The notes below the pieces were generated by a model. The model saw nothing but the letters and a program-made list of their open reading frames with translations, ran no database searches and had not been told where the DNA came from. Source: Metabacillus endolithicus (GTDB lineage: Bacteria > Bacillota > Bacilli > Bacillales > Bacillaceae). Taken from it: a stretch of DNA of 64,000 nt. Of the stretch, positions 42,998 through 53,100 are shown one piece after another. The position numbers and the translations under genes were made by a program. How positions within the stretch are numbered: position 1 is the first letter of the stretch; each line of letters starts with the position of its first letter. The stretch covers positions 1,470,001 to 1,534,000 of the forward strand of contig NZ_CP095550.1 of NCBI RefSeq assembly GCF_023078335.1, written 5' to 3'.

Positions 42998-43697
42998 TTA
43001 ATTAGATCCTGTTTTCAATAGAACTTCTTGTTCAGCTTCATGTTTTACAGATGTTGATTTAACATACTTGGCTGTTAAAATTACTGCTGCGACAACAAGA
43101 ATTTCAAAACCATACTTAACAAAGCCATTTTCAAATAATCCACTTAAGAAATGTTCACCAACAATCATTTTTGATGCTGTCCAAGCAAGAACACCGGCAC
43201 CGATTGTAACGATGATTGGATATCTGTCAATCCATTTAAGAATTAACGTACTACCCCACATAACAACTGGTACAGAAATAAGTAATCCAATAACAACTAG
43301 AAGCATGTTACCGTGTGATGCACCTGCTACAGCTAAAACATTATCAAGCCCCCATTAACGCATCTGCAATAATAACAGTACGAATTGCTGCCCAAAAGCT
43401 GTCTCCAGCTTTAACATCACCATGATCATTATCATCCACAAGCAGTTTATAAGCTATGTAAACTAATAGAAGTCCACCTACTAAATGAAGACCAGGGATA
43501 GCTAACAACCAAACAACTGCTAAAGTCGCAACAATTCGAATTGCTATTGCTCCTACCGATCCCCATAAAATAACTTTTTTCTGTTGATGTTTAGGCAAGT
43601 TTCTTGCCGCAAGTCCAATTAAAATGGCATTGTCTCCAGCTAAAACCAAATCAATCACAATAATAGATAAAAGTGCAGTGAGAAATTCCATTTCCAT
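42998..43697 (-). pseudogene. TerC/YjbE-family manganese exporter, frameshifted
   Basis: The N-terminal part (LLSIIVIDLVLAGDNAILIGLAARNLP, with the family's Asp and Asn) and the C-terminal part (NMLLVVIGLLISVPVVMWGS onward) are in different frames. At about 43352-43356 a run of five C on the plus strand should be four, which restores ADALMGLDNVLAVAGA. Corrected length is about 232 residues with seven membrane helices. The yybP-ykoY riboswitch just upstream identifies it as a Mn-responsive TerC-type efflux protein, which in B. subtilis helps load exported metalloenzymes with Mn. The break is probably a sequencing error. Confidence 0.9.
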
Positions 43698-43761: not shown

Positions 43762-43897
43762 AAAATAAAGAGACCTTTGCCATAGTGGCAAAGGTCTCGC
43801 TAAGCACAAACATTATGCCAATAAAGCCGATGAACCTCGTTCATGTAATGACGACTTTATTTCAGGTTAAACCTGACGCTACTCCCCTTTACGGTGG
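43762..43897 (-). promoter_or_regulatory. yybP-ykoY (Mn2+) riboswitch with terminator
   Basis: Read on the minus strand: AAAGGGGAGTAGC near 43890, GTCGTCAT, CGGC, then GCGAGACC and the hairpin GAGACCTTTGCC/GGCAAAGGTCTC followed by TTTATTTTT at 43762-43798. These are the invariant parts of the manganese riboswitch and its terminator, placed about 65 bp before the terC start. Confidence 0.93.
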
Positions 43898-44084
43898 GAA
43901 ATTTTGCTATCGATTTTTCTATTTGCCATTATACTTTATTTTATGGGCATGTGTCTATGATTTTGTTTAAGTGACCAGGCACCACCATAATTTTGTCAAA
44001 TCAAATACTACTTAATTTTCATATAAAAAAAATCCAAATTATAACCTGGAATTCCCATATATCCCCACTTGCCTTTTCTCTTAT

Positions 44085-47415: not shown

Positions 47416-47733
47416 TTATTACACACCTTTCTACTATATTATTAGTTTTTTAATATTGGATAGGGTTGTGTGAAACGAGTACATGTGTTTCAACAAAGTG
47501 AAATAATAAGTAAAACAAACGATAATACCTTCTCTAATAGTGAGATTTATTATATTCACAATTATAACCCTTTAGAACTAAAAAGTCTTATAGGAACTCT
47601 TGAGGCTTTTAGTACATTTTTTTATAAATCAAAATTAGGCTTTTCCATACGCAACTATTCTGCTTTCATTCCGTCATATGTAGTAATACGGAAACGTTTT
47701 TCGTGTTAGATATCATTACCGGGAGGAAACATC

Positions 47734-48669
47734 ATGAAAAAACATAAGTATAATCTCATTAAAGTAGCTATATTAACACTAGGGATAAGTGGAGTGTTTG
47801 GAGCTAGTTCAGCTGGTGCTTCAACAACATATGAAATAAAAAAAGGTGATACTTTATATAGCCTTGCTAAAAAACATGAACTAACAGTTGCACAATTAAA
47901 ACAACTAAACAACCTTTCTTCTTCAACGATCTACTTAGGAGACAAACTAACAATTCCCACAACCATTACGATAAAAAAAGGTGATACCTTATATAGCCTC
48001 GCAAAAAAATATAACACCTCTGTTTCACAATTGAAGTTCATCAACCACCTTACATCGAACACGATCATTGTTGGAAAAAAACTTGTTATCCCTACAAATG
48101 TTACTGTAAAAGCAGGTGATACTCTATATAGCATCGCAAAAAATTACGGTTTAACTGTTAGTGAGTTAAAGTCAATTAACTACCTAACCTCTAACTGGAT
48201 CAAGGTTGGTCAAACACTTAATGTTGCATACGCTAAAAAGGATGCAAGCTCACCCAATAGTTATGATGCGTCTAAAAAGGAAGTGAATGTCAGACCAACA
48301 AAAGGATTTACATTTGACGCAGAAGAGCCGCGAAAATTCATCTTACAATCTACTAGTAAAGAAGAATATTTTTCTAGACTTGAGGTCTTAGATAGCAATG
48401 TTAACTTAGAAGAAATTAAGACTAATTCCATGATGTATCTTAATGGAAACAAAGTAACTGAGCATGATCCAAAAGCCACTTCACATCCTTTTTATCATGA
48501 TGCTTTGCTTTATTTACATGGATATAACAACAATACTCAAACAACAATTGTTGTAAAAGAGATTAACGGGGTATTCATAAGGTTCACCATTCACTACCTA
48601 AATAAAGAAGAATCTGAAGCAATTATTCCTAAGATGATCAAGATCCTCCAAACCACATCAGTTAAATAA
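47734..48669 (+). CDS. secreted protein with three LysM domains
   Basis: A signal peptide (residues 1-28, ending SAGAS) precedes three LysM modules of about 43 residues (IKKGDTLYSLAKKHEL, IKKGDTLYSLAKKYNT, VKAGDTLYSIAKNYGL). The C-terminal 140 residues have no recognised domain; they look like a mixed alpha/beta fold (FILQSTSKEEYFSRLEVLD and TTIVVKEINGVFIRFTIHYL). It probably binds peptidoglycan. GGGAGG is upstream of the ATG. Confidence 0.9.
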   Translation: MKKHKYNLIKVAILTLGISGVFGASSAGASTTYEIKKGDTLYSLAKKHELTVAQLKQLNNLSSSTIYLGDKLTIPTTITIKKGDTLYSLAKKYNTSVSQLKFINHLTSNTIIVGKKLVIPTNVTVKAGDTLYSIAKNYGLTVSELKSINYLTSNWIKVGQTLNVAYAKKDASSPNSYDASKKEVNVRPTKGFTFDAEEPRKFILQSTSKEEYFSRLEVLDSNVNLEEIKTNSMMYLNGNKVTEHDPKATSHPFYHDALLYLHGYNNNTQTTIVVKEINGVFIRFTIHYLNKEESEAIIPKMIKILQTTSVK

Positions 48670-48774
48670 TCATCTCCTGTTACTCTTAGTTAATAAATTT
48701 TCTATAAATTTATTAACCATCTATTGACTATAATAAAAAAATATTTTACTATTATCTCAAGTAAATAAAAACGT

Positions 48775-48937
48775 TCTCCTAAAGGGGAGTAGCTTTTACA
48801 ACAAAGTCGTCATTACAGAGTTTCTAACTCTCGGCTTCGTTGGCAACCTTTTCGTTGTTAGCAAGACCTTTACTGTTAAGTAAAGGTCTTTATGTGTTTT
48901 TTGAGACCTTTACCATCTACGGTAAAGGTCTTTTTAT
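48775..48937 (+). promoter_or_regulatory. yybP-ykoY (Mn2+) riboswitch with two tandem terminators
   Basis: AAAGGGGAGTAGC, then GTCGTCAT, CGGC and GTTAGCAAGACC form the aptamer (48779-48870). The first terminator, AGACCTTTACT/AGTAAAGGTCT with a later T-run, is at 48864-48900. A second near-copy, GAGACCTTTACC/GGTAAAGGTC with TTTTTATTT, follows at 48903-48937. The FbpB-like gene starts 41 bp later. Both stems repeat the ACCTTTAC block. Confidence 0.9.
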
Positions 48938-48977
48938 TTAACTACCTATAGGAAACGTAAAAAAGGAGATTACCATT

Positions 48978-49121
48978 ATGGTAAAAAAAGTATCAATGGA
49001 AGATTTGATTAGAAAAAACAAAGAAGAACTTCTTAAAGATAAAACGCAAATGGATAGAATTGAAAAACGCATTGATCAAAAGTATTTATCACAAAGCAAA
49101 CAAACAGGAGGAGATAAATGA
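48978..49121 (+). CDS. FbpB-like small basic protein
   Basis: This 47-residue, Lys-rich peptide (MVKKVSMEDLIRKNKEELLK, then QMDRIEKRIDQKY) has the pattern of the Fur-regulated FbpB family of Bacillus, which acts with small RNA FsrA in iron sparing. An AAAGGAG site precedes the ATG, and its stop overlaps the next start by four bases. Here the regulatory input looks like manganese rather than iron. Family assignment is by pattern only. Confidence 0.7.
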   Translation: MVKKVSMEDLIRKNKEELLKDKTQMDRIEKRIDQKYLSQSKQTGGDK

Positions 49122-49510
49122 TGCTATTGAGGAAATATATGTCACTTTTAGGTGTAGGATCTGCGATAATTGATCTTATCTTACCTAAGGAAACGTATAA
49201 ACGCGGAGAACTTATCAACGGTTACTTTCATGTTAAAGGTGGAACTATTGAACAGCAATTAAGAAGAATTGATAGTGATCTAGTATTAATTGATGCTACG
49301 ACAAAAACTGAAAAAGTGATTGATACTGCGACTATCTTATCAACAAAGCTTCTCCGATCAGAAGAAGCTAGCAAAATTTCATTTACATTTAAGTTGCCAG
49401 AAAATATTCCTGTATCTAGTGAGCACATTTCTTATCGCTTTAAAACAAGACTTACTTTTAATGAAGGTGTAGAAAGTAAAGATCAAGATATCATACAGGT
49501 AATATCATAA
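49118..49510 (+). CDS. Spo0M-like arrestin-fold protein, half-length
   Basis: The product (130 residues) matches the N-terminal half of Spo0M: GVGSAIIDLILPKETYKRGE, then INGYFHVKGGTIEQQLRRID and ENIPVSSEHISYRFKTRLTF. B. subtilis Spo0M has about 258 residues, so the C-terminal half is missing although the frame ends cleanly. GGAGGAG before the ATG and the four-base overlap with the FbpB-like gene show coupling. It could control a sporulation or stress process; that is inference. Confidence 0.8.
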   Translation: MMLLRKYMSLLGVGSAIIDLILPKETYKRGELINGYFHVKGGTIEQQLRRIDSDLVLIDATTKTEKVIDTATILSTKLLRSEEASKISFTFKLPENIPVSSEHISYRFKTRLTFNEGVESKDQDIIQVIS

Positions 49511-49537
49511 GATTGATAAGCAGAAAGGAAAGCTTAA

Positions 49538-49810
49538 ATGTTCAAAATTATAAAACGAATAAAATTTATCTTTACTTTTTGGAGATTTCTCCCTTTTTTA
49601 AAAGAGTTCTTTCTATCTAAACAGGTTGAAACATCTAAAAAAGTAATTGGTCTTTTATTCATCGTAGCCTACGCCATGTTTCCATTCGATCTAATTCCTG
49701 ACTTCCTCTCTGTTCTAGGGATTGTCGACGATGTTGTCATTGCTACATTCGTTTTAGAACGATTAATTAAGATGGCACCTGAATCACTTAAGGAGAAATA
49801 TAATTTATAA
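49538..49810 (+). CDS. YkvA-like DUF1232 membrane protein
   Basis: This 90-residue protein has a basic N-terminus and a hydrophobic DUF1232 core (LFIVAYAMFPFDLIPDFLSVLGIVDDVVIA), the hallmark of YkvA-type small membrane proteins. Two membrane segments are likely. It is the third gene behind the manganese riboswitch, 27 bp after the Spo0M-like gene. Function unknown. Confidence 0.85.
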   Translation: MFKIIKRIKFIFTFWRFLPFLKEFFLSKQVETSKKVIGLLFIVAYAMFPFDLIPDFLSVLGIVDDVVIATFVLERLIKMAPESLKEKYNL

Positions 49811-49905
49811 ACACTCACCAATTTGTTTAATACAATATGAACCATGAGTGTGGTTATTTCATTAATAATGTTCTTCCTAAGATTGTTAATGTTAACGAAT
49901 AATAA

Positions 49906-50046
49906 AACGATAGTGCAATGGAGCGGAAGACACTTGACTCCTGCGGGAGCAGCGGGACAGGTGAGACCCCGCAGGCAAAGCCGAGGAGGCTCAGCGCACG
50001 CCCCGCGGAAAGCAAGTGACTGCAGCGCAATGGAACGAACTTTTCT
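49906..50046. repeat. GC-rich dispersed intergenic repeat
   Basis: The block stands out from its AT-rich surroundings. It contains CCTGCGGG and CCCCGCAGG as inverted partners, further self-complementary blocks, and near-copies of GCGGAA and GCAATGGA at each end. Elements of this type (GGAGCGGAAG...CCTGCGGGA) recur in Bacillaceae intergenic regions. Function unknown. Confidence 0.75.
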
Positions 50047-50068
50047 CGGGCATCTTAATCCTTATAAA

Positions 50069-50107
50069 AAAATGAAGCCTACACAACTACTGTGTAGGCT
50101 TCATTTT
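50069..50107. terminator. bidirectional terminator between ykvA-like and swrC
   Basis: AATGAAGCCTACACA and TGTGTAGGCTTCATT form a 15-bp stem with A/T runs on both sides. Confidence 0.9.
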
Positions 50108-53100
50108 TATTCTTGTATTTGCTTAACTTTCTTCCTTTTTATCACAGTATAAAAGGCTGGAACAAAAAGCAATGTGAAAATGGTCGAAAAGAAAATACCT
50201 GAAATAATTGAAATGGCTAGTGGGGTAAATAATACATCTCCACTAAATGCAATTGGTAATAAAGCACCCATAGATGTAACTGCTGTTAAGACTACAGGTC
50301 TTAATCTTGCTTCACCTGACTCAACTACAGCCTCCAGTAAAGTAGCACCTTCTTGAAGTCTTTGCTCCATAAACTCAATAAACACCGTTGCATTTCTAAC
50401 AACTATTCCTGCTAAGGAGACAATTCCCATCATCGCCATAAAGCCTAAGCCTGTTTGAGTAAGGAATAAACCTATAACCGCTCCTGAAATTGCAAGATAA
50501 ACAGAACTCATAATCAGCAACGGAATTCTTAGTGAGTTGAATTGAACAACCATTAAAATATAAATAAGGAACACAACAATAATAAATAGCTTTCCTACTT
50601 CTACAAAGAAATCGGAACGAGCCGAAGACTCCCCACCTACAGAAACATTAATTGAATCTGACGTATATTGTTCCGCTAACGTCTTAATTTCAGATTCTAC
50701 ATCTGATTTTTTGTCGTCAGTTGGATATGTTCGAATGGTAATGGTTCTTTCTCCGTTACTATGTGGAACAGATTGAATTTCTTGACCTTCCTCTACAGCT
50801 ACAAGCTCGGATAAAGGTACAAGAACAGGTGGTCCTTGCTGTGACATCGTGTTGGAAGGTAATCTTATTTCCTCTAGGTTTATATCACTTTCATCACGAT
50901 TACCTGAAACCTTTATAGTGAAATCACGGCTTGTTGTCCCATCATCATAACTTCCCATTGGAACTCCGTCTGTTATTAATCTAATCTGTTGGCTAATCTC
51001 ATTAGATGTAATTCCATGCTCTTGCATTTTATTACGAATTGGTTCGTAAACAATTGTTGGACGTGATTGACCAACATCATCAATGACTGCTCCACTTCCA
51101 TCTATTTTTGAGATTTTCCCTTTCATTTCGTCAACAGTATCGGTAAGTTCTTTGATATCACTACCCGATACAGTAATAGCAATTGGTGCGCCAACAGGTG
51201 GACCGGCCTCAATCGTCGCCATTGAAATGATTGCTTCTGGGTACCTCTCTCTTAAAGAATCCTGCCATTTATCGATCGTTTCTGCTGCTGATTGTGACTC
51301 TTTATCGACTCTAAGGACAATTTGCCCATTATTTTCACCTGGATTCGAAATAACACTTCCAAACATCCCTGGTTCACCAGTCCCGGCAAATATTGTACTT
51401 TCATAAATCGCTGAATCTTCTTTTTTCATATACTCTTGCATTTCTTCCAGAAAATCTTCTGTTTGTTCAATTGTTTTTTCCGGTGGCAATGTAACAGTAA
51501 CTGTTACTTCTTCACGATCTGCACTAGGGAAAAACACAACAGGAATAAATGGAACTAACCCATAAACGAAGGTACAAAACACTAATACGGTTAACCCAAT
51601 TCTCATCGGATATTTGACAACTTTCTTTAAGATCTTGTTGCTATAAAAAGCTGCAAGACCTTCTAGCGGTTTTCCTAATAAACCATCTTTCTGCTTTTTA
51701 ATAGTTGCTTTCTTAACTAAGCGTTTCTGATTCCACATTAAAAAGATCGGCACAAGTGTTAAAGCAATAATCGTTGATCCAATGATCGTTGTAATTAATA
51801 CAGAAGGTAACGCGCGTATAAATGCTCCATTTGATCCACCAATAAAAGTTAAAGGCAAGAAAGTGAAAACGATCGCTAAGGTTGAGGTGATAACAGAAAC
51901 TCTCACTTCTTTCGTTCCCTGTAGAGCTCCTTGTAAAGGACCATCACCTAGTTTGTATCTTCTTCTTATGTTGTCGTTAACAACAATGGCATCATCAACA
52001 AGAATTCCTAGTGCAATAATCATTCCGATAATCGAAATTTGATTTAAATCAACATTCATATACGGCAAAGGTATTAGCCCTAGTGCAATTGAAGCAGGTA
52101 TTGCAATCGCAACAAGAAAAGCAGAACTAACATTTAATCCTAAAAGAGTTACTAGCACTACCACTGCAATCGAAATTAGAAAAGAAAGACCTAAATCCTT
52201 GAAAATTTTTCCGACAATCGTATTTTGAGTGTAATAAGTGTCCAATGTAATATTTTCGGGCAAATCATTTGCTAGTTTTTTGACCTTTTCATCAACCGTT
52301 TCATGAAGAGAGGGAATGTCCACTCCCTCTTCCTGCAGTACCGTCATTGAAACAGCAGGTGTGTTATTATAGTTAACGATTTTAGGTTTTTCTGAAGGAA
52401 CTAACTTAAGTTCGCCTACATCACCTATCAAAATGTCGTTACCTTTTTCATCTACCTTTAAAAAGATCTTTTCTACCTCTTCAACCGTCTTAATATGCTC
52501 CAACAACAATTGCTTGTTTTCACCATTTATTTCTTTACTGCCTAAAGGTGTAATCTCAAGTTCATTATTTATGGCGTTTATGACATCAGGGAAGATAAGG
52601 GAATAATCACCTAGCTTATCTTGATCAAGGGTTAACATGTATTCATCTTCGACAATCCCTTTAAATGATACCTTTCGAACTCCTTCAATTTTTTCCAATT
52701 CTTTCTGCCATCCAAGTAACAATTCTCTCTGGTTCTGTAATAGTTCTCTGTCATCACTTAGTAAATGATAGGAAGAAAGAGTGCCTGTTTGAATATCCGA
52801 ATTAACTTCTGACTTCAACACATTTTCAGGGAATGTTTGGCTAGTGTCTGATACAGCCTGCCTTACTTGTGATAATACTTGATTACGGTCTTCATTATCT
52901 GATAATTCAAGAACAATAGTAGAAACTCCAGCTCCGGATACAGATGAAAATTCTGCTATCCCTTTAATACCCTCGAGTTCTTCTTCTAAAGGATTCGTAA
53001 CTGTTCTTTCAACAAGTTCTGGCTCAGCACCAGGAAAGATTGTTGTAATTGTAGCCACATTTACTGATATTTCAGGAATTTCACGCTTTGGCAGCTGCAA

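Follow-up and report, generated by a model that had tools for sequence, protein, structure and literature searches.

TerC proteins serve in manganese export. Passages of PMC10550928 describe the TerC proteins MeeF and MeeY as metalating exoenzymes with manganese; secretion proteins, FtsH, and FloA are recovered together with them, and the MeeF/MeeY double mutant is dependent on FtsH. In Vibrio, mneA and terC are reported to stand behind a manganese switch (PMC13274385). Within the yybP-ykoY class of riboswitches, ON-switches with an exchange between helix P1 and a terminator have been described for L. lactis, X. oryzae, and H. halodurans ykoY (passages of PMC11087558, PMC6754395, and PMC10898510).

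The locus presented here is an operon of three small genes of Metabacillus endolithicus, located within a 64 kb stretch of DNA that was analysed as a whole (hereafter, the window). The switch class at its head and each of its protein families are already known. The locus and its relatives share with the yybP-ykoY class the L1/L3 core letters, the P1/terminator exchange, and TerC-type targets. They differ from it in that the operon leader has no helix P2, carries tandem hairpins (T1 and T2) with complementary arms, and scores under the Rfam cut-off, and in that the operon targets are an FbpB-like gene, a half-length Spo0M-like gene, and a DUF1232 gene. Overall, it appears somewhat probable that this P2-less manganese riboswitch switches on an accessory module whose proteins assist, at the membrane, in TerC-type manganese handling.

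All three genes are on the plus strand and closely coupled, as the first-pass annotation had read them. The first (48978..49121) encodes a 47-aa FbpB-family microprotein (PF13040, 49.8 bits, cut-off 25), the second (49118..49510) a 130-aa Spo0M-like protein with an arrestin N-domain (PF07070, 73.3 bits, cut-off 23), and the third (49538..49810) a 90-aa DUF1232 protein (PF06803, 36.5 bits, cut-off 23). The ATG of the Spo0M-like gene at 49118 creates a 4-base overlap with the FbpB-like gene, and 27 bases separate the Spo0M-like gene from the DUF1232 gene. For the FbpB-like frame, compared among 59 homologues including that of the window, the median pairwise dN/dS is 0.28 (494 pairs with dS of 0.1-2), with values under 0.5 in 89% of the pairs and a maximum of 1.18; judged by these ratios, the frame looks to be coding and under purifying selection.

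The Spo0M-like protein covers profile positions 1-134 of the 213 of PF07070 and is therefore labelled half-length. A profile search aligned it with Spo0M (PDB code: 5cl2) at E 1.2e-20 over chain residues 4-128 of 252, and its AlphaFold model has a mean pLDDT of 85.0 and eight strands, with residues 1-13 at the N-terminus being loose (pLDDT under 50). It shares the N-terminal arrestin-like domain with Spo0M but does not have the second domain. The model of the DUF1232 protein is helical (mean pLDDT 75.8), and an alignment of 22 sequences shows P49, D51, P54, D55, D64, and D65 to be invariant. Between the operon and a convergent RND efflux gene lies a near-symmetric terminator-like hairpin (50068..50108), which the terminator scan reported on the plus strand and which is left here without a strand assignment. 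A GC-rich repeat downstream of the operon, at 49905-50045, has 14 matches in its own genome at E <= 1e-10, the window copy included.

The aptamer ahead of these genes occupies 48780..48872 on the plus strand. In an Rfam search of 47500-51000, RF00080 matched 48772-48859 (+) with 28.1 bits (E 4.3e-5), and the gathering score of 45 bits was not reached. A covariance model, R1, was built from the leaders of 36 relatives (taken from the best 80 of 95) with the window left out, its structure being hand-written from the known yybP-ykoY helices and the sequences of the relatives. With R1, 48780-48872 scores 102.8 bits (E 1.9e-28); at E up to 1 the model has one further match in the whole 64 kb, a second manganese switch (43789-43891, minus strand; 52.8 bits). 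In the 36-leader aptamer alignment, 98.7% of the 1008 pair cells hold standard pairs, and changes on both sides occur in 11 of the 28 pairs, the two P3 helices accounting for ten of these and P4 for the remaining one; none of 500 shuffles equalled the real alignment in any of five measures. P1 and P1.2 are almost invariant and therefore provide no covariation information. The earlier description of a well-formed yybP-ykoY aptamer, to be checked against the Rfam model, thus holds with one correction: by the R1 score and the P3 covariation the aptamer is real, and RF00080 does match it, below the cut-off, but its form is not the textbook one, since P2 is missing.

Without helix P2, the operon aptamer does not form the four-way junction that includes P2. 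The spacing from GGGGAGTAGC to GTCGTCA is 11-12 nt in P2-less leaders, compared with 22-31 nt in leaders with P2. The operon leader is classed as a P2-less variant of RF00080 because another P2-less leader, L185 (spacing 12; G073:C28:68336-68424), reaches 48.1 bits with RF00080 and so passes the 45-bit cut-off. Both parts of the L1/L3 core, AAAGGGGAGTAGC and GTCGTCA, are present in the window, and among the leaders of the best 80 of 95 relatives the former is exact in 79 and the latter in 78. The GUCGUCA loop should hold the Mn-binding adenosine, the letter being placed by analogy with A48 of PMC6754395. The P1 switch helix pairs 48780-48785 with 48867-48872 (plus strand) in the leader fold, and P1 and T1 exclude each other, as 48867-48872 is common to both. 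Fold z-scores of three leader pieces are -2.35 for the aptamer and -5.59 and -7.62 for the pieces with the hairpins.

Upstream of the aptamer, a consensus scan gave a promoter-like sequence (TTGACT, 17 nt, TACTAT; 48724..48752, plus strand), which is a candidate only, as the region holds five promoter-like sites against a shuffle mean of 7.9. At the aptamer start (48776-48789), a CTCC-TAAAGG-GGAG hairpin that recurs in many leaders would compete with P1 and is possibly a third control layer. The Rfam matches to Thr_leader, trpB motif, PyrR, RAGATH-7, and miRNA in 47500-51000 are all under their gathering scores and were discarded. That of PyrR spans the T1/T2 repeat. A passage of PMC4342826 lists '(yybP-ykoY)(PyrR)-ykoY' in B. 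methanolicus, and we suspect that the PyrR label there marks the same T1/T2 repeat.

The terminators expected ahead of the genes are present. T1 (48863..48890, plus strand) is a terminator-like hairpin whose 5' arm overlaps the 3' strand of P1, and T2 (48903..48932, plus strand) resembles an intrinsic terminator; both were obtained from the terminator scan and from folding. Six terminator-like sites were found on both strands of 48200-50500, against a shuffle mean of 1.0. In a set of 81 leaders (the window and the best 80 of 95 relatives), every leader has a T1 that uses the P1 3' strand (6-8 of 8 pairs) and, after it, a T2 that ends in a T-rich tail (81/81 for both). Aligned in register, the T2 5' arm reads CCTTTACC in 59 and CCTTTGCC in 14 of the 81. 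Since the T2 5' arm resembles the T1 5' arm, the T1 3' arm is able to pair with it, and a putative antiterminator (48880..48913, plus strand) is proposed from a constrained fold and the 81 leaders, formed by the T1 3' arm (48880-48889) and the T2 5' arm (48904-48913). Across the 81 leaders, 632 of 648 positions pair between these arms, 581 of them as Watson-Crick pairs.

A relay between the two hairpins can be potentially described as follows. At low Mn, the aptamer would be loose and T1 would capture the P1 3' strand; T1 and then T2 would form, and transcription would stop. At high Mn, the metal would clamp L1 and L3, and P1 would retain the 5' arm of T1. This would leave the 3' arm of T1 free to pair with the T2 5' arm, T2 would be blocked, and the polymerase would enter the fbpB-like, spo0M-like, and DUF1232 genes, together with terC in some relatives. 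When the leader is folded only up to the T2 3' arm and under a P1 constraint, the antiterminator arises unaided in the structure of lowest energy, at -36.3 kcal/mol, compared with -41.2 kcal/mol for the T1 state of the same partial leader, all energies given here excluding Mn and tertiary contacts. For the full leader, the energies are -59.4 (T1+T2), -45.6 (P1+T2), and -38.5 kcal/mol (P1+antiterminator); therefore, the antiterminator would have to win by timing.

Alternatively, T2 may be an independent second terminator that sets a low basal level without any relay, an explanation to which we give a serious chance, if somewhat less than an even one. Tandem terminators do occur without relays. 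When the T2 arms of the 81 leaders were shuffled among loci, the covariation between the T1 3' and T2 5' arms did not stand out (p 0.127), and the relay as a demonstrated mechanism was set aside on this result; one position pair gave p 0.016, on related rows. A free T2, however, would halt the polymerase regardless of Mn, and the complementarity of the T1 3' and T2 5' arms has been kept in the 81 leaders. In addition, T1 is not followed by TTT within the next 8 nt in 18 of the 81, so these hairpins seem unfit as terminators, which speaks for a role of T1 other than terminating.

The two explanations were also compared across the switch class. At least about 150 RF00080 matches are present in the family, and a sample of 73 matched leaders was drawn (4 from the own genome, 29 best-scoring, and 40 hand-chosen, mostly lower-scoring), of which 70 were classed, L176, L178, and L180 being skipped. 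A second hairpin complementary to T1 was found in 24 of 31 P2-less leaders versus 1 of 39 P2-bearing leaders (p 1.6e-11, a value that overstates independence because the rows are related and hand-picked), and this argues against an independent T2. Five P2-less leaders (L158, L166, L168, L173, and L177) have no matching T2 in either of two comparisons, as would be expected of an independent T2, and two further misses, L152 and L167, show 7/8 pairs in the other comparison. It appears that the conserved pairing supports a relay from T1 to T2, with weak support from covariation.

The linkage between the switch and the half-length Spo0M gene is widespread. Spo0M matches at E 1e-5, full-length forms included, occur in 60 of the 80 genomes of the family that were searched. 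Close half-length forms are present in 21/21 genomes of the genus of the window and in 7/7 of genus g3 (loci L007-L034), and GGGGAGTAG lies upstream of half-Spo0M in all 28 loci. RF00080 at E 0.1 matched 17 of the 20 loci L007-L026, with no match in L022, L023, and L026, and none of the 20 was above the gathering score; therefore, annotation by the RF00080 cut-off would miss these leaders. A search of a contig database matched 158 stretches, 95 of them encoding half-Spo0M relatives. By record title, the best 80 of these 95 (L037-L116, whose genomes partly overlap those of L007-L034) come from Metabacillus, Peribacillus, Mesobacillus, Rossellomorea, Domibacillus, Lederbergia, Cytobacillus, Litchfieldia, Robertmurraya, Sporosarcina, Paenisporosarcina, and others. 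In all 80, GGGGAGTAG is found 197-832 nt upstream of half-Spo0M. With the aptamer core upstream in 28/28 and 80/80 loci of these overlapping sets, the operon is, judged from sequence, nearly certainly under the control of the manganese switch, as the first-pass annotation had proposed.

The same gene order recurs behind switches in other Bacillaceae to a varying extent. Counted with our own profiles from tblastn seeds in the same loci, an FbpB-like gene stands between switch and Spo0M in 58 of the best 80 of 95 loci, DUF1232 lies downstream of half-Spo0M in 28, and a same-strand TerC gene follows in 24; all four genes follow the switch in nine, and 38 have neither DUF1232 nor TerC. The Rossellomorea-titled loci among them (10/10) consist of switch, FbpB, and Spo0M only. 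In the genus of the window, DUF1232 is present in 20/21 loci and TerC in 0/21, within flanks of about 1.5 kb or less. By motif search, the aptamer core is absent upstream of five half-length paralogues (L035 and L036, from genera other than g3 and that of the window, and L117, L118, and L119) and of two full-length Spo0M loci (L121 and L122), and is present at the distant locus L120. In a tree of 50 rows, which has a midpoint root only and a bootstrap that is not settled, the five unlinked paralogues form one clade (100/99), the two full-length rows form another (100/99) apart from all 48 half-length rows, and none of 200 bootstrap trees has a branch that separates the 43 switch-linked rows from the rest. 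The distribution would fit an early gain of the switch linkage with one loss.

Between Spo0M and DUF1232, the loci L038-L041, L043, and L073 have a conserved small ORF, or what is left of one, that is hydrophobic and contains the motif LE[VT]KNPPR; found in 6 of the best 80 of 95 loci and not in the window, it was rejected as a part of the module. The operon of L116 is of the Bacillaceae type, although the record bears the title Chryseobacterium sp. ISL-80; the assembly is probably mislabelled or mixed. The proteins encoded after Spo0M in L091 and L116, and behind other manganese switches in L159, L164, L166, and L168, look kinase-like by sight; that of L116 is below the Pfam cut-offs and that of L159 has no Pfam match.

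P2-less leaders are also found before other genes, so they are an existing subtype and not unique to this operon. They precede TerC in L005, L176, L177, L179, and L180. In genus g2, such a switch precedes a DUF6376 gene, which we take to be yybP itself (L169, 118.1 bits; L170 alike by sight). L003 (G000:C1:3756438-3756522), in the own genome, is a P2-less manganese switch with tandem hairpins, followed by what is by sight the reverse transcriptase frame of a group II intron. In g4, FbpB-family genes with a different partner stand behind P2-less switches (PF13040, 39.3 bits in L162 and 41.2 bits in L185; L161 and L172 by sight).

These g4 genes bear on the role of the microprotein. It is possible, if unlikely, that the operon serves Mn detoxification or metal sparing without TerC, with the FbpB-like protein as an RNA-linked regulator that, when Mn is in excess, lowers the synthesis of Mn-sensitive or iron-using proteins, and the other genes merely sharing the switch. 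Its PF13040 membership, its purifying selection, and the recurrence of FbpB-family genes behind Mn switches with another partner would agree with this. In addition, lutABC of B. subtilis is a joint target of FbpB and the sRNA FsrA according to passages of PMC7430163. The same passages, however, call FbpB a suggested RNA chaperone and note that its RNA binding is without experimental evidence, and for this reason the microprotein is given no firm role here. Compared with FbpB (Fur-regulated basic protein B), it has the PF13040 domain and a length of about 47 aa in common, but it misses the NCBIfam FbpB equivalog cut-off (19.8 versus 60 bits) and has a Mn switch and no Fur-box signal. By a simple count on one strand against a Fur-box consensus, the best Fur box at the operon promoter scores 9/14, which 83% of shuffles equal; the mean over the best 80 of 95 loci is 8.94 versus 8.79 in shuffles. 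The other PF13040 gene of the genome (L196) has a Fur box of 11/14. Fur regulation of the FbpB-like gene was accordingly dropped, and the earlier hint of iron sparing is not borne out. Metal sparing by the microprotein also agrees poorly with the 22 of the best 80 of 95 loci that keep the switch and Spo0M and in which an FbpB-like gene was not found. Manganese handling appears to be the common theme, as FbpB-like genes occur in two settings and TerC follows in 24/80 loci (best 80 of 95).

The TerC genes also qualify the earlier statement that none of the three genes is a known Mn transporter: this stands for the window operon, but a same-strand TerC follows in some relatives. Five TerC proteins (L052, L056, and L111 of the 24; L028; and L005 of the own genome) belong to the YkoY family (TIGR03716, 297-301 bits, cut-off 138.5), and the label 'meeF' was abandoned for the operon TerC because NCBIfam places the tested proteins there. 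The own-genome protein at L005 (299.3 bits) is encoded behind its own P2-less switch (R1, 99.8 bits), away from the operon, and is 81% identical with the operon TerC of L028 over the matched stretch. The locus is thus linked to the MeeF/MeeY type of system, YkoY family TIGR03716, by the same-strand TerC in 24/80 relatives (best 80 of 95) and by the P2-less switch of L005; it differs in that the window operon has no TerC gene, and a text search of PMC10550928 gives no occurrence of arrestin or of ykvA.

The window itself carries another TerC gene, on the minus strand at 42998-43697, in two frames and nearest to the YjbE family in NCBIfam (133.4 bits, cut-off 134.8; the gene is broken). It is preceded by the second manganese switch (43789-43899, minus strand), which is canonical and P2-bearing and scores 49.2 bits with RF00080, above the cut-off. 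The frame breaks at about 43345, in the vicinity of a G5 tract, and a second YjbE-type copy, L001, is also broken; either real decay or assembly errors may account for this.

We infer that the operon proteins act as TerC partners at the membrane, where they most likely work with TerC proteins of the YkoY family. The half-Spo0M protein would serve as an adaptor, either for TerC/secretion complexes or for quality control of the FtsH type; the DUF1232 protein, with its set of conserved acidic residues, would be a small partner in the membrane, and the FbpB-like peptide a small regulator. For half-Spo0M as a small adaptor between TerC, the translocon, and FtsH, the chances seem about even. Spo0M partners named in passages of PMC5325327 include FtsH and FloA besides chaperones, proteases, and numerous proteins of cell division and the wall, and were obtained with full-length B. 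subtilis Spo0M, not the half-length form. A Mn-homeostasis role, as first suggested for the three genes, is supported by TerC downstream in 24 of the best 80 of 95 loci, but the 56 in which TerC is not downstream speak against the TerC reading.

The same Spo0M partners, which in B. subtilis include division and wall-synthesis proteins (passages of PMC5325327), may instead point to envelope or division stress. Half-Spo0M and DUF1232 would then tune wall, division, or lipid assembly at high Mn, since the activity of Mn-dependent envelope enzymes would change there, and the TerC linkage would be a by-product of shared regulation. A P2-less Mn switch before a PAP2 gene in L164, from the genus of the window (PF01569, 83.4 bits), and an EcsC gene after Spo0M in Lederbergia L064 (239 bits) are in line with such a role. 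However, those partners belong to the full-length protein, and TerC is, besides DUF1232, the commonest further gene looked for (24/80 of the best 80 of 95 loci, only these two families having been profiled and few others named). We consider an envelope or division role quite unlikely.

A search of mostly non-subscription literature found no report of the switch-linked operon, of half-Spo0M as a near-constant manganese-switch gene, or of a relay leader, and an earlier mention is possible. In its most extended form, put forward tentatively, the proposal of an accessory module for TerC is that a dedicated Bacillaceae module (FbpB-like protein, one-domain arrestin, DUF1232, and TerC) couples the level of cytosolic Mn to both the Mn loading and the quality control of secreted and membrane proteins, and is run by a two-gate relay riboswitch. 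The leader offers a simple test of whether a riboswitch signal can pass through two hairpins, and the operon brings FbpB-family microproteins into manganese biology. TerC metalates secreted enzymes, and the passages of the literature on it name no small dedicated co-encoded partners; an arrestin-fold protein linked to the switch has been retained together with two small proteins across many genera, and the three would be concrete and testable candidates for TerC partners.
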